Source: a virus. From it: a stretch of DNA of 20,888 bases. The notes under the pieces are model-generated. The model saw only the letters and a program-made list of their open reading frames with translations. It searched no databases and had not been told where the DNA came from. The position numbers and the translations under genes were made by a program. Shown here piece by piece: positions 5,646 to 17,813 of this stretch; position 1 is the stretch's first letter, and each line of letters opens with the position of its first letter. The stretch spans positions 618 to 21,505 of IMG/VR virus record IMGVR_UViG_3300029319_000602; one strand, 5' to 3'.

Positions 5646-6131
5646 ATGGCAGTATTAGATCCAAATGAAATAATGTTCAGAGCCTTCGAACCTAAGGTTC
5701 AAAATAGGTTCATTATGTATATCGATGCTATTCCTTCTTTCATGGTTAAGAACGTTTCAGCTCCTAGCTTTACTGATGAGGAAGTGAAACTAGATCACAT
5801 CAACTCATATAGAAAAATTAGAGGAAAGAGAAATTGGGAAAATATGGATTTAACACTCTATGATCCTGTAACTCCTTCTGGTGCACAAGCTGTAATGGAT
5901 TGGGCTAGACTTTCTTATGAGTCGGTAACTGGAAGAGCAGGATACAGCGATTTCTACAAAAAAGACTTAACACTAAATATTTTAGGACCTGTAGGAGATA
6001 TCGTCTCTGAATGGGTAATCAAAGGTGCTTTTATAGTTAATATGTCACAAGGTTCGTTTGACTGGGCTACATCTGACGTAGCAGAATTAACTATATCAGT
6101 AGCAATGGACTATTGTGTATTGAATTACTAA
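5646..6131 (+). CDS. gp19: Tail tube protein (T4 gp19-like)
   Basis: At 161 residues this matches T4 gp19 (163 residues), whose hexamer rings stack to form the inner tail tube. Conserved features include an N-terminal FEPKVQNRFIMYIDAIPSF segment, the YRKIRGKRNWENMDLTLYDP turn, the ALMDW-like region (AVMDWAR), and the C-terminal strand GAFIVNMSQGSFDW. Its position right after the sheath gene is the standard order of T4-type phages. A strong terminator follows 29 bases after the stop codon, so the tube mRNA should end there. C-ending codons are again more frequent than in most of the window, in keeping with high expression. Confidence 0.95.
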   Translation: MAVLDPNEIMFRAFEPKVQNRFIMYIDAIPSFMVKNVSAPSFTDEEVKLDHINSYRKIRGKRNWENMDLTLYDPVTPSGAQAVMDWARLSYESVTGRAGYSDFYKKDLTLNILGPVGDIVSEWVIKGAFIVNMSQGSFDWATSDVAELTISVAMDYCVLNY

Positions 6132-6246: not shown

Positions 6247-6990
6247 ATGGAAAGTAATAACAAATTCCCAACAGAAGTTATTGATTTACCTTCAAAAGGA
6301 TTACTTTACTCTAAAGATTCACCTCTATCATCCGGAAAAATAGAGATGAAATATATGACTGCTAAAGAAGAAGATATTCTTACTAATCAGAATTATATAG
6401 CTAAAGGTACTGTAATCGACAAACTTCTACAATCTCTTATAGTTGATAAAAAAATTAGCTATAATGATTTATTAGTAGGAGATAAAAATGCTTTACTTAT
6501 AGCTGCACGTGTTTTAGGTTATGGTAAAGATTATACATTTGATTATGCAGGTGAAAAAGTAACATTAGATTTATCACTATTAAATGCTAAAGAAGTAGAT
6601 GAAAGTAATTTTGCCGATGGTAAAAATGAATTTTCTTTTACCTTACCAGCATCAGGAGCTAATATAACTTTTAAATTATTAACTCATAGTGACGAAACTA
6701 AAATAACTAAAGAGATAGAAGGTCTTAAAAGAATAAATAAAGACGTTTCTCCTGAATTATCTACAAGATTAAAATATATGATTACATCTGTAGATGGTGA
6801 TTCAGATACTAAAACAATTCGTGAATTCGTGGATAATAGATTCTTAGCTAGAGACTCAAGAGCATTTCGGACATATGTTTCTGAGATCCAGCCGGACATA
6901 GATCTAACATTCTATCCCGACAATGGTCCGGAGAAGGGGGTGACTATCCCTCTGGGAGTAAACTTTCTTTGGCCTGACGCCACAGTATAG
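6247..6990 (+). CDS. gp26: Baseplate hub/tail-assembly chaperone (T4 gp26-like)
   Basis: The 247-residue product has the order of conserved segments seen in the T4 gp26 baseplate protein family: DLPSKGLLY (13-21), KYMTAKEEDIL (35-45), a GTVIDKLLQSL helix, and DLLVGDKNALLIAARVLGYG (74-93). The later part is charged and ends with IPLGVNFLWPDA. gp26 is needed for hub assembly in T4. The gene lies between tube and tape measure, the spot that in many tailed phages holds a tail-assembly chaperone made in a short and a frameshifted long form. The last 50 codons use G/C-ending codons (CCG, GGG, GTG, CTG, GCC) rare in the rest of the gene. Its stop at 6988 lies in the region where the next ORF is open in the +1 frame. 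Confidence 0.8.
   Translation: MESNNKFPTEVIDLPSKGLLYSKDSPLSSGKIEMKYMTAKEEDILTNQNYIAKGTVIDKLLQSLIVDKKISYNDLLVGDKNALLIAARVLGYGKDYTFDYAGEKVTLDLSLLNAKEVDESNFADGKNEFSFTLPASGANITFKLLTHSDETKITKEIEGLKRINKDVSPELSTRLKYMITSVDGDSDTKTIREFVDNRFLARDSRAFRTYVSEIQPDIDLTFYPDNGPEKGVTIPLGVNFLWPDATV
6962..6990 (+). other. Possible +1 frameshift site (overlap of two ORFs)
   Basis: The frame of the downstream ORF is open from 6962 (just after a TAA at 6959-6961), while the gp26-like frame stops at TAG 6988-6990. Any switch must occur in this stretch and must be +1 (or -2). CTT-T (6967-6970, followed by GG) allows the tRNA on CTT to re-pair with TTT, the same slip used in the bacterial prfB gene, though here the next codon is TGG and not a stop. 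A second option is at GTA just before TAG. Confidence 0.45.
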
Positions 6991-6997
6991 AGCAAGT

Positions 6998-7231
6998 TTG
7001 TTCAATCAGATCCATGAGATAGTTTTTCATGGTAAAGGAGGCTTTGATTACCATACTGTATATAATTTTCCTATATGGTTACGTAATTATACCTTTCAAA
7101 AAATGAATGAACATTACGAAGAAGAATCTAAGGCTTATAAGAAAGCATCCGGTAAAAGTACTTCACCAGGAAGTATACCAAAAGGTCCTGCAATAAGGAA
7201 ACCTAACTATAGTACGAAGGCTCGCAAATAA
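6998..7231 (+). CDS. C-terminal extension of the gp26-like protein (separate frame)
   Basis: The frame is open from 6962 to 7231 and carries a well-organised domain: LFNQIHEIVFHGKGGF followed by TVYNFPIWLRNYTFQKMNEHY, then a charged, Lys-rich tail. The HE...GKGGF...VYN.PIWLR pattern resembles the C-terminal part of gp26/gp51-type baseplate assembly proteins of other T4-like phages, where it continues directly after a segment like NFLWPD. Here that segment ends the preceding ORF. There is no ATG before the domain, only TTG at 6998, eight bases after the upstream stop, without any ribosome binding site. I think it is more likely made as a frameshift fusion than as a 77-residue protein of its own. 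The stop codon lies inside the loop of a terminator hairpin. Confidence 0.65.
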   Translation: MFNQIHEIVFHGKGGFDYHTVYNFPIWLRNYTFQKMNEHYEEESKAYKKASGKSTSPGSIPKGPAIRKPNYSTKARK

Positions 7232-7267: not shown

Positions 7268-10200
7268 ATGGCTACTAATCAAGATAAAGAAAACGAAAAG
7301 GAAATTACCAGACAAAAAGCTGAGCAAGATAAGCTCAACAAGGAAGCTGTTAGGGATACTAAAAAGATTTCTGATAATACTAAGGATACAGGTAATAACT
7401 ATAAAGTTATTAATAATGAATTCCAAAGTTATGCAGACGCTATTCGTGCAGCTAATGTAGAAATACAAGGTTCTAATAAATCATTAAATGATGCTAAAAA
7501 AGCATATAATGATCTTACTTCACTTGCAACCCAATTAGCCAGAAACCAACAAGATTTAGGTGATTTATCTAAAAAAGAATTAAATGATATAATAGAGAAA
7601 TCTAAAGCAAGACGTGCTGATATCAAAGATGCTGCTATGGGTATGCAGCAAGAACTGGCATCACTTAAAAAGAAAATTGACGATGGTGGTAAATTAACCA
7701 AAGTTGAACAAACCAGGAAAGATCAAATATTAGCTTTATTAAAAGCTACAGGTGAAAGTTTAGAATTAGAAGAAAGTATTACTAAAGAAGCTGAAGAACA
7801 GCTTAAACTTGAAGAAAAAATATCTGAAAAAGCAGGTTTAACAGGAGATATTCTCAAATCTGCTCAAGGAGTTCTTCAAAAAATGGGATTCGAATCCAAG
7901 ATAGTTGGAGATGCAATCGCTAACGCAAACGCTGAAATGCGTAAAATGGTTCTTGAAGCTGAAAAGAATGGAACTGAAATAAGTAAAGCTGACGTAATGT
8001 TTAAAGGACTTGGTACTACTGTATCAGGTTTAAGTAAAGCATTAATGGATCCTCTAGCAATAATTGGTTTTTTCGTTGCTGCTATTGGTAAAGCTGATAA
8101 AAGAATTACAGGTTTACAGAAAAGACTTGGTTTAAGTAGAGATGCTGCGAGAGGTATTAACATGGAGATGGCAGGAGTTGCTGCTGCTTCCGGTAATGCG
8201 TTTATTACTTCAGATAGATTATTAAAGACTTTTAGTGCTCTTACAGACGAAATCGGAATGTCAGCAAGAGTATTTAGTAATGATGCTCTTAAGTCAGCTA
8301 CTATATTAACTGAAAAACTTCATATGTCTGCAGGTGAAGCTAGAGTATTAACTCAAGCAATGCAAGCTAATGGACAAGCATCTGAAGCTACATTATCATC
8401 CGTAGGAGATCAAGTTACTGAGTTTAATAAGCAGAATAAAACTATGTTTAGCACAAAGGATATTTTATCCGATGTAGCTAACGTCTCTAAAGCAACTTTA
8501 TTAACTAATAAGAGTAATGTTAATGCATTAGCAGCCGCTGCAACAGAAGCAAGGAAATTAGGGATGAACCTAAATCAAGTAGAAGCTATTGGTGAATCAT
8601 TATTAGATTTTGAATCTTCTATAGCAGCTGAAATGGAAGCTCAATTAATGTTAGGTAAAAATATTAATTTGAGTAAAGCTAGAGAAGCAGCATTGACAGG
8701 TGATACCGAAACTCTTACTAAAGAAATAGGTAAACAAGAAGCTATATTCCAAGCATTTAGAAGCGGTAACGTATTACAGCAACAAGCAGCTGCAAAAGCT
8801 CTTGGTATGAGCAGAGAAGAATTAGCTGGAATGGTTCATCAACAAGAATTAGTTAAATTAGGAGCTGAAGGATTTAAAGACGCATATGGAGAATCAGCTT
8901 ACGAACAGTTACAGGCTCAAACAGCTCAAGATAAATTTAATGATATACTAAACAAAACGATGGGCTTGATAGCCGATTTAGTTACACCTTTTATGCCTTT
9001 AGTAGATATTATTACTAAAATTCTTAAAATTCCTTTCTTACCTCAATTTTTAGCTATAGGAGTAGCTATAAAAGCAGTAGGAGGTAATCTTACCGGGGTA
9101 GTGGGTGGAATAGGAAAGATGAGTAAAGGGTTACTGAATGCTGCTAAAAATTCTAAAGGTCTTCTTAAGAATATGGTAGAAATGGCTAAAAATAAATTGA
9201 TGGGTGAAAAAATCGGCGGTCAATTTATAAAAGGTGGAGGTAGAGCACCAGCAGGAGCTAGAGCAGGTATTACAGGTAAAGGAGGATTATTAGGAGGATT
9301 AAAAGAAAAAATTACCCCAGGTAAAGAATCGAAACTACCTTCGATGGATAAAACTAAAGACATTACTAAAAATACTAAAGGTGTTTCTCCTAAATTAGGA
9401 AAGAGTATCAAAGAATTTTTAACAGGGTTAGGTGATGGATTAGCTCATATTGGTGGAAAATTTGGAAAAGTAGTTGCAGGTGGAATTGCACTTGGTATAG
9501 CCGGTGCTGCATTAGGAGGAGGTTTTGCTGTAGCATTAAAACTATTACCAGATGTTGATCCAGCAACAATATTAGCATTTGCAGGAGGATTATCAGCATT
9601 AGGATTTTCTTTAGCGGCAGTAGGTAAAGTAGCTTCAGGAGCTATAAAAGGAGCATTAGCATTATCTATAATGTCAATTGGATTAATTCCAGCGGCATAT
9701 GCATTCTCTCTTTTAGCAGGAGTTGATCCAGGTGCTATAATAGCTTTCGCTTTAGCATTACCTATCTTAGGTTTATCAATATTAGGTTTAGGAGCAGTAG
9801 TAGCTGGCCCTGGTTTAATACTATTTGGAGCTGGAATTGCGGGGTTACTTGCCTTAGGTGCAGCTGTTATACCTTTAGCAGCAGCATTCGCTCAATTAAA
9901 AAATGTAGATATTGAAGGTTCAATAGGAGGAATATTATCATTAGGAAGTGCAGCAGCAAGTATGATAGCGGCAGGAGCAGGATTAGCAGCGTTAGGAGGA
10001 GGATTAATGGCATTAAGTGTGGGAGCATTATTCTCAGGACCTGGTCTTGGTATGTTAAAGGAATTAGGTTCTATTGGTGGTAGTCTTCAAGCAGCAGGTG
10101 CCGGAGTAAGAGCATTAGCAGAAAATATAGGGCTTTTAAAAGATAATCTTAATGAACTAGAGGTAGAAAAATTAAATGAATTACAAGGGTTAATAACTAC

Positions 10201-10408
10201 AGCAGCAATAGCAGCACCTATGTTAGCATTAGCTGGAGGTTTAGGACAAATGGTAGCAGGTATTACAGGAGGTCAATCAGGAGGTAATGATGCTGTAGCA
10301 GCTAAGTTAGATGAATTAATAGCGGTTGTTAAAGAAGGTGGTGATGTATTTATTGACGGTAGTAAAGCAGGTAATGCATTAGTATTAGCTTCAAGTAAAA
10401 GTTCATAA
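7268..10408 (+). CDS. Tail tape measure protein
   Basis: A 1046-residue protein with the standard tape-measure layout: an N-terminal Lys/Glu-rich, coiled-coil part (1-200), an Ala-rich helical middle (about 270-560), a Gly/Lys-rich linker (630-720) and a long hydrophobic stretch (730-1000) with several probable membrane-spanning helices, of the kind inserted in the host membrane at injection. It sits after tube and chaperone genes as expected, taking the place of T4 gp29 (590 residues) though much longer. Using the usual 0.15 nm per residue for a stretched helical ruler, tail length would be about 150-160 nm. The hydrophobic part contains three imperfect copies of an LL..VDP..I.aF...L..LG.S unit. 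A peptidase domain was not recognised. Start: the first ATG after a promoter-like element. Confidence 0.9.
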   Translation: MATNQDKENEKEITRQKAEQDKLNKEAVRDTKKISDNTKDTGNNYKVINNEFQSYADAIRAANVEIQGSNKSLNDAKKAYNDLTSLATQLARNQQDLGDLSKKELNDIIEKSKARRADIKDAAMGMQQELASLKKKIDDGGKLTKVEQTRKDQILALLKATGESLELEESITKEAEEQLKLEEKISEKAGLTGDILKSAQGVLQKMGFESKIVGDAIANANAEMRKMVLEAEKNGTEISKADVMFKGLGTTVSGLSKALMDPLAIIGFFVAAIGKADKRITGLQKRLGLSRDAARGINMEMAGVAAASGNAFITSDRLLKTFSALTDEIGMSARVFSNDALKSATILTEKLHMSAGEARVLTQAMQANGQASEATLSSVGDQVTEFNKQNKTMFSTKDILSDVANVSKATLLTNKSNVNALAAAATEARKLGMNLNQVEAIGESLLDFESSIAAEMEAQLMLGKNINLSKAREAALTGDTETLTKEIGKQEAIFQAFRSGNVLQQQAAAKALGMSREELAGMVHQQELVKLGAEGFKDAYGESAYEQLQAQTAQDKFNDILNKTMGLIADLVTPFMPLVDIITKILKIPFLPQFLAIGVAIKAVGGNLTGVVGGIGKMSKGLLNAAKNSKGLLKNMVEMAKNKLMGEKIGGQFIKGGGRAPAGARAGITGKGGLLGGLKEKITPGKESKLPSMDKTKDITKNTKGVSPKLGKSIKEFLTGLGDGLAHIGGKFGKVVAGGIALGIAGAALGGGFAVALKLLPDVDPATILAFAGGLSALGFSLAAVGKVASGAIKGALALSIMSIGLIPAAYAFSLLAGVDPGAIIAFALALPILGLSILGLGAVVAGPGLILFGAGIAGLLALGAAVIPLAAAFAQLKNVDIEGSIGGILSLGSAAASMIAAGAGLAALGGGLMALSVGALFSGPGLGMLKELGSIGGSLQAAGAGVRALAENIGLLKDNLNELEVEKLNELQGLITTAAIAAPMLALAGGLGQMVAGITGGQSGGNDAVAAKLDELIAVVKEGGDVFIDGSKAGNALVLASSKSS
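9542..10042 (+). repeat. Three imperfect hydrophobic repeats in the tape measure protein
   Basis: The encoded protein has three related units anchored by VDP or VDI at residues 763, 819 and 880 (spacing 56 and 61). The pattern is LL..VDP..I.AF...L..LG.SL...G, followed by a Gly/Ala-rich hydrophobic helix. The third copy is more divergent. DNA identity between the copies is limited, so this is an old duplication or selected pattern. Confidence 0.6.
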
Positions 10409-16490: not shown

Positions 16491-17813
16491 ATGTTTTATA
16501 TAGTTGAATCTGATAATCAGATAGAGAAACTAAAAAGTTATGGTAAAAAAGGTTACGTAGAAGTTATTTCTAATAACGATAACATTCATCCTAAACTTTC
16601 TACTACTGTTGCTCTATATATTAGACCTTTAGAATCTAATAAAGGTTACATTATTCCTGTGGAACACGACGAAGGTATTAATATTTCAAAAAACCGTGTC
16701 TCCCAAGTTCTAGATACATTCGATACACTTTATACATTAAATAGAAAAGACTTTATATACCACTTTAATACCCGTGGATTAATTGATATTTCATTACTAT
16801 ATTCTATGATAGAGTATGATAGATTGGATATTTTTCATAGTAATAAGACTTATAACTATTTTTATAGTAAAAATTCTAATTTTAAAGATATCAATAAACT
16901 TATACCTTTATCGAAACATCATGAAAAATGCGAAGAAAATTTTAGTAAAATAAAAGATATTTTAGAAAAAGATATACCAAAAGGGTTCGATTTTTATAAT
17001 GAAACTTGCAGTAATGTATTTTATTTAATTGAGCAGCAAGGATTAGGTATTTTTTATAATGCTTTTAACGAATTATTTAAACCAAAGAATCCTTTATATA
17101 ATATTTATAACAATACAGTATTAACATCATATAATTTATACAATGCAACGTCTAGACCTACTAATGCTCATAATAGCATTAATTTCGCTGCTATTCCTAA
17201 ATCTGAGAAACATCGAAAGTGTTTCAAACCTCAAAACGACAAGTTTGTTGAGTTTGATTTTGACGGTTATCACTTGCGTTTACTTTGTGATCAAATTAAC
17301 TATAAGTTAAATGAGGAATCAGCTCATAAACAGCTTGCGAAATTATACTTTAATAAAGAAGAAATAACTGAAGATGAATATTCTGAAGCAAAACAGTTAA
17401 ATTTCCAAGCAATCTATGGAAAAATACCAAAAAAACATAAAAATTTAGAGATTTTTAAATTAATACAAGAGTATATTGATAATATGTGGAAAATATACCA
17501 AGATACCGGTGAGGTATGTAATCCGCAATCAGATAAACCTTTTACTAGTAAACTTAAAAGGATGAATCCTGCTAAATTAATGAATTATATGATGCAATCA
17601 TTAGAAACATCTAATAATGTTTTAATTTTAAAGGATGTATTAAGATATTTGAAAGATAAGAAGACTAAGATAGCTTTATACACGTATGATGCTATATTAT
17701 TTGACTTTTCAAAAGAAGACGGTAAACAAACTTTACTAGATATTGAGAGAATTATGAGCAGAGATAATAAATATCCTGTTAAATTTAAATTCTCACAAAA
17801 TCTAGTTTTATAA
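16491..17813 (+). CDS. Compact divergent family A DNA polymerase
   Basis: The 440-residue protein carries the three family A polymerase motifs in order. Motif A is DFDGYHLR (256-263); the first Asp is the metal ligand. Motif B is K301-x3-F305-x3-Y309-G310. Motif C is YTYDAIL with Asp400. Upstream, TSRPT (220-224) matches the TGR.T primer-binding segment, and Q369 in NYMMQS fits the QG motif. Compared with E. coli Pol I, Glu710 is His261, Arg754 is Tyr297 and His881-Asp-Glu883 is Tyr-Asp-Ala; the 762 position is Phe305. The first 180 residues resemble a 3'-5' exonuclease domain that has lost its DxE residues. It is only half the size of T7 polymerase (704 residues). It probably copies the phage genome, taking the place of T4 gp43; a repair role is possible. 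Confidence 0.85.
   Translation: MFYIVESDNQIEKLKSYGKKGYVEVISNNDNIHPKLSTTVALYIRPLESNKGYIIPVEHDEGINISKNRVSQVLDTFDTLYTLNRKDFIYHFNTRGLIDISLLYSMIEYDRLDIFHSNKTYNYFYSKNSNFKDINKLIPLSKHHEKCEENFSKIKDILEKDIPKGFDFYNETCSNVFYLIEQQGLGIFYNAFNELFKPKNPLYNIYNNTVLTSYNLYNATSRPTNAHNSINFAAIPKSEKHRKCFKPQNDKFVEFDFDGYHLRLLCDQINYKLNEESAHKQLAKLYFNKEEITEDEYSEAKQLNFQAIYGKIPKKHKNLEIFKLIQEYIDNMWKIYQDTGEVCNPQSDKPFTSKLKRMNPAKLMNYMMQSLETSNNVLILKDVLRYLKDKKTKIALYTYDAILFDFSKEDGKQTLLDIERIMSRDNKYPVKFKFSQNLVL

Follow-up and report, generated by a model that had tools for sequence, protein, structure and literature searches.

How does a marine phage translate a frame that overlaps the end of a tail gene and offers ribosomes no proper start codon? 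This question is raised by a pair of overlapping open reading frames at 6,247 to 7,231 of the window analyzed here, a 20,888-nt stretch of DNA comprising positions 618 to 21,505 of IMGVR_UViG_3300029319_000602. Very probably, one tail-building helper is made in a short and a long form, some ribosomes skipping one base to produce the latter. Judged from the sequence comparisons below, we strongly favor the view that both ORFs belong to a single tail-assembly chaperone gene, in which a programmed +1 frameshift would yield a 247-aa short form and a 327-aa long form.

Layout of the locus

The features of this locus lie on the + strand. ORF1 (6247..6990) encodes a gp26-like product of 247 aa whose C terminus, NFLWPDATV, is followed by a TAG at 6988..6990. 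It matches phrog_150 (baseplate hub, E 1e-7) and narrowly misses the gathering cutoff of the Pfam family PF12322, T4_baseplate (23.0 bits versus 24.5, E 7e-5). The +1 frame relative to ORF1 is open from 6962 to a stop at 7229-7231, overlapping ORF1, and is closed upstream by a TAA at 6959..6961, so that any shift into it must take place 3' of this codon. Its sole listed start in the window is a TTG at 6998, a few nucleotides past the TAG.

The upstream neighbor (5646..6131) is a tail tube gene of gp19 type (Pfam PF06841, E 3e-8; PHROG tail tube, E 3e-22). Downstream, a 1046-aa ORF at 7268..10408 has no Pfam match and is a probable tape measure gene by its position and size, its counterpart in Flavobacterium phage immuto being annotated as tape measure. 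The pair is thus located, as an earlier sequence-only reading of this DNA had stated, between the major tail protein and tape measure genes, which is the location of G/GT. Elsewhere in the window, GDSL hydrolase and UDP-glucose dehydrogenase-like genes (836-2744) stand immediately 5' of the tail genes, and a family A DNA polymerase-like protein, short at 440 aa and with a Pfam match only at residues 207-315, is encoded at 16491-17813, adjoining gp32-like and RecA-like genes.

Conservation of the two-frame layout

Searching with ORF2, we found about 600 related contigs, together with four Flavobacterium phage records, Microcystis phage Mel-JY01, and a 484-kb uncultured phage; ORF2 of LR756508 as query returned no further relatives. 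Where both halves are present, ORF2 occupies the +1 frame in 172/174 loci, and the two exceptions, L129 and L160, have an indel farther upstream in ORF1, while their junction is intact and still +1. This layout is far beyond chance. The sequence-only reading had proposed a programmed +1 frameshift joining the gp26-like gene to the next ORF, with a two-frame layout that should recur in related phages, and both this recurrence and the conserved junction described below support it. Dereplication at 90% nucleotide identity left 90 loci.

Flavobacteriaceae-binned contigs among the relatives, together with the immuto phages, suggest that much of the clade has flavobacterial hosts. ORF1 and ORF2 are each single copy in immuto (160 kb), Mel-JY01 (190 kb), and one 177-kb contig, and therefore no other gene able to supply a long form was found in these three genomes. 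The immuto record (L082, 2354-2464) annotates only a 36-aa hypothetical protein at the +1 extension, most of which is missed.

Selection at the junction and on the +1 peptide

Within the overlap lies a near-invariant junction, TTT CTT TGG CCT GAC in the window (6964..6978), for which the 90 dereplicated loci give the consensus TTT-YTT-TGG-CCT-GAC, with TTT in 90/90, CCT in 90/90, and GAC in at least 84/90. The base after TTT is C or T in every one of them. Synonymous conservation in ORF1 is maximal at this TTT, whereas synonymous sites elsewhere in ORF1 vary freely in the same loci (mean F 0.11). The 15-mer of the junction occurs once in the window, and across the 90 loci it occurs 78 times on the + strand and 0 times on the opposite strand. 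Codon choice is equally constrained: the Gly codon of the +1 frame is GGC in 84/84, compared to 7.5% of ORF1 Gly codons, the Leu codon is CTG in 87/90, compared to 1.9% of ORF1 Leu codons, and the junction Asp codon is GAC in most loci, compared to a predominance of GAT (77%) among ORF1 Asp codons, although the 90 loci are kin and these counts are not independent trials.

Coding in both frames (WPD and GLT) can account for part of the constraint at the junction. CCTGAC (6973-6978) is almost invariant among the 90 loci, although the tail of the short product should be free to vary, and dual coding accounts for part of that invariance as well. Variants include CTA in place of CTT in L084 and L098 and, in place of TGG, TAC in L006 and TTC in L072. 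The overlap contains a conserved slippery sequence, but one of +1 type, unlike the usual -1 heptamer.

The peptide encoded beyond the junction is conserved in its own right. The +1-frame extension (6968..7231; 87 aa and a stop, beginning FGLTPQYRASLFNQIHEIVFHGKGG) shows conservation in all relatives, starting at its first residues and following the pattern F-GLT..YR..QIHEIVFHGKGG. Its conservation begins at FGLT in every relative, even where the nucleotide sequence differs, as with F-S-L-T in L072 and Y-S-L-P in L084, and Tyr-Arg is retained in the 12 loci in which frame 0 stops 5' of it. Given this starting point of conservation, the shift must occur at or before YTT-T, either from UUU to UUY or from YUU to UUU. 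Moreover, in the part of the open +1 frame that precedes the conserved GG motif, 65/90 loci have no ATG and 33/90 have none of ATG, GTG, and TTG, in agreement with the earlier description of a second frame, open from 6962, without a proper start. As far as sequences can tell, selection on the +1 peptide and the lack of a conserved start codon are established, and the second ORF would be entered by a shift of conserved direction.

Site and direction of the shift

In the mechanism that we favor, the majority of ribosomes would end ORF1 at the TAG at 6988, giving the gp26-like, lambda G-like short form of 247 aa. In a fraction of ribosomes, the P-site tRNA-Phe would move by +1 from UUU (6964-6966) to UUC (6965-6967), and these ribosomes would read on through UUU-GGC-CUG-ACG to give a GT-like form of 327 aa with an 87-aa C-terminal extension. 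The fusion junction would read NF-F-GLT. By analogy with lambda, the tape measure may be coated by the short form, while the long form may recruit tail-tube subunits, with many short forms made for few long ones. We infer the slip codon, its efficiency, and the ratio of the two forms, as well as these roles.

The sequence-only reading had placed the slip one codon later, at CTT-T (6967-6970), where tRNA-Leu would move from CUU to UUU while awaiting Trp at UGG, as in RF2, and the fusion would read NF-L-GLT. A +1 slip on CUU is proven for RF2, and CTT T or TTT T is found in nearly all loci. However, the A-site codon is not always UGG, as the TAC and TTC variants demonstrate, and there is no stop at that position. 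Nor does the site resemble that of RF2 in this respect, since the frame-0 stop lies 5-12 codons downstream of TTT, varying among relatives, and not in the A site next to CUU. In L084 and L098, CUA would need to slip to UAU, and the more distant phages SP-15 and GXN1 lack a CTT at this position. Because the CTA of L084 and L098 and the sites of SP-15 and GXN1 fit a move of tRNA-Phe from UUU to UUC and not one of tRNA-Leu from CUU to UUU, we place the slip at UUU_C (6964..6967) and consider a slip at CUU rather unlikely. Thus, the junction originally singled out is conserved, but a UUU_Ynn shift site one codon earlier fits better than CTT-T. An in-frame UUU followed by a pyrimidine, present in all 90 loci, belongs to the UUU_Ynn class, reported to undergo +1 shifting with particular ease in bacteria, also where no stop codon is present (PMC5009743).

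We found little sign of a stimulator. RNA folding at the junction is weak against shuffled controls (mean z between -0.9 and +0.1), the RNAalifold consensus reaches only -2.0 kcal/mol, and a helix at the junction shows no compensatory changes. No conserved purine run was found just upstream of the site, and an RF2-type Shine-Dalgarno element there was rejected. A purine-rich element, GAG AAG GGG in the window (6931..6939, which lies roughly 25-33 nt upstream of the slip site) and GAG-GAG-GG in most relatives, is conserved at synonymous positions, its Glu codon being GAG in 62 relatives and GAA in 3. It is too far from the site for the known Shine-Dalgarno effects on frameshifting.

Three other routes into the second frame do not involve a slip of +1 on the ribosome. 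RNA polymerase could omit one U of the run, so that the altered mRNA would be read in the +1 frame, and 50/90 loci do have at least 7 consecutive T. In the other 40, the window included, a C breaks the T run (TTTCTTT or TTTCTA), an interruption that should abolish slippage, yet the layout is kept; we therefore regard transcriptional slippage as very unlikely. ORF2 could also be a separate small protein made by re-initiation near the ORF1 stop, for instance at the TTG at 6998 just beyond the TAG, and several cyanophages have an ATG after the stop. That TTG is kept in only 3/90 loci, a third of the loci (33/90) lack any usable start, and conservation of the +1 peptide extends 5' of every such start, all of which makes re-initiation very unlikely. 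Finally, a shift of -2 yields the same frame, and the sequence-only reading had allowed either direction. In TTTCTTT loci, the tRNA would then pair poorly (Phe on ACU, or Leu on UUC), but a +1 move from UUU finds a full match whichever variant is present, so that +1 is favored and -2 is highly improbable. A sequencing error or decayed gene, for which nothing speaks besides the two-frame layout itself, is practically excluded, and sequencing error is ruled out by the 172/174 loci at +1, as the layout is common to hundreds of contigs and several isolated-phage records with both frames conserved.

A short/long pair made in three ways

Because ORF1 falls below the Pfam cutoff, its membership of PF12322 rests on intermediates above it: LR756508 gp26, which has 41.8% identity to ORF1 (E 2e-53) and scores 55.9 bits, and SP-15, which scores 99.9 bits. 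In Pfam and PHROG scans of the fused protein, the profile did not extend into ORF2. PF12322 matches both T4 gp26 (E 9e-64) and T4 gp51 (E 4e-52, residues 1-201 of 249), and the two proteins match each other by BLASTP (E 2e-6). Their common match to the family indicates that they are paralogues, gp51 having an extra C terminus. The 3' end of T4 gp26 (GGC CTC AAA GAG TTC TTT GAG TTA CTA TAA) contains no shift site. Campylobacter phage CP220 (L286, L287) likewise has two PF12322 genes, one with an open frame of 228 codons and one with a frame of 244 codons that ends in a gp51-like extension, as in T4.

Other members of the family have overlapping frames. A +1 ORF is found at the equivalent Phe-Phe point in Bacillus SP-15 (GAA-TTT-TTT-CAC) and Streptococcus GXN1 (GAA-TTC-TTT-CGT), and both sites permit a move from UUU to UUC. 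In the cyanophages P-SSM2 and S-PM2, pelagiphage HTVC008M, KVP40, and S-WAM2, gp26 ends in a Phe-Phe run, U_UUU_UUC (UUU in HTVC008M), and gp51 lies in a -1 frame that stays open through the junction. S-WAM2 has no ATG at the gp51 junction. All 80 contigs found with P-SSM2 gp26 as query have a -1 ORF after U_UUU_UUC, and the -1 arrangement recurs in Rhizobium AF3 (U_UUU_UUG) and Desulfovibrio phage 7757 (U_UUU_UUC). In these cyano-, Vibrio, Rhizobium, and Desulfovibrio phages (L195, L196, L198-L277, and L279-L282), gp26-gp51 resembles an unannotated -1 frameshift pair at U_UUU_UU(C/G).

The extensions themselves appear related. The cyanophage extension is homologous to the C terminus of T4 gp51 (hhalign E 3.5e-12), and the flavophage extension encoded by ORF2 matches cyanophage gp51 (hhalign E 2e-4, probability 46%) and the SP-15/GXN1 extension (E 4e-5), although these are single comparisons of short domains and constitute moderate evidence. 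Compared directly, ORF2 and T4 gp51 give E 0.066 (probability 1%, not significant) or 0.006, depending on the comparison. ORF2 would correspond to the C-terminal extension that separates T4 gp51 from its paralogue gp26, and not to gp51 itself. PF12322 appears to be a family in which one short/long pair is made by a +1 shift, a -1 shift, or two paralogous genes.

T4 gp26 has long been listed as a baseplate hub subunit and gp51 as a hub assembly catalyst. We lean toward a different view, in which gp26 and gp51 would be the missing T4 counterparts of lambda G/GT: an ancestral frameshift at the Phe-Phe point would have flipped direction between lineages, and duplication in T4 and Campylobacter phages would have replaced frameshifting. 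The record of Citrobacter phage Moon (L278) assigns the GT-like fusion of a tape measure chaperone to gp27/gp28; judging by PF12322, that pair is gp26/gp51 instead. Among long-tailed phages, frameshifted tail chaperones are described as widely conserved, and T4 is named the exception (PMC5009743); a short/long chaperone pair in T4-related phages offers an explanation for this exception, duplication instead of frameshifting. Moreover, the natural series of +1, -1, and two genes makes the need for a fixed short-to-long ratio directly testable.

Structure models of the two halves

ORF1 and ORF2 were modeled separately. The ORF1 model is good (pLDDT 88.5), and only three PDB matches exceed Z 2.1, the score of the next row: YqbN (3klu, Z 5.5), the HK97 chaperone (2ob9, Z 4.6, over 83 residues), and 5ir0 (Z 4.0), all confined to residues 1-96. 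In Foldseek, 2ob9 also comes first of 350,542 chains, with E 0.79, a weak and partial match, and a sequence search of the PDB with ORF1 gave no match. The predicted fold of ORF1 agrees with a chaperone role without proving it. ORF2 is modeled as a helical hairpin at low confidence (pLDDT 66).

Comparison with known systems

Frameshifted tail chaperones in general are already known, and so are +1 examples. Within the open-licence literature, in which we found no prior description of a gp26/gp51 frameshift, three points appear to be new: a +1 site in the PF12322 family, the change of direction at a homologous site, and T4 gp26/gp51 as a duplicated G/GT pair. The sequence-only reading had called a +1 shift in such a phage unusual; it is uncommon, but not without precedent. 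The tail chaperone gene of the myovirus HSTV-2, which has an archaeal host, is reported as very likely +1 shifted (PMC5009743), and the PRFect study drew on 350 forward sites of annotated phage genes, the majority of them tail chaperones (PMC10885494).

Lambda G/GT likewise lies between tail tube and tape measure genes and makes a short and an extended form from overlapping frames, but lambda and most of its relatives shift by -1, whereas the flavophage-type gene would shift by +1 on UUU_Y. The likeness to lambda is one of layout, the fold match being weak and to the HK97 chaperone only. With T4, ORF1 shares the gp26 family through its relatives, and the C-terminal extension of gp51 stands in the place of ORF2; there, however, the short and long forms are two separate in-frame genes. 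The gp26-gp51 pairs of Kyanoviridae cyanophages and pelagiphages and of KVP40 have the same gene order and the same Phe-Phe point, but their gp51 lies in the -1 frame, behind U_UUU_UUC or U_UUU_UUU, and in many of them an ATG could serve to start gp51 by itself.

RF2 (prfB) is likewise a +1 system, and CUU U is present in fewer than half of the loci here. In contrast to RF2, the flavophage site has neither an A-site stop nor a Shine-Dalgarno-like element just upstream and is not autoregulatory. Influenza PA-X and the bacterial UUU_Ynn sites share the proposed mechanism, P-site tRNA-Phe moving from UUU to UUC, the GXN1 site UUC_UUU_CGU_C being nearly the PA-X site UCC_UUU_CGU. PA-X differs in its eukaryotic host, whereas here an invariant GGCCUGAC follows in a structural phage gene. 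The site proposed here, UUU_Y plus GGCCUGAC, would be a well-conserved bacterial +1 signal that operates without an A-site stop.
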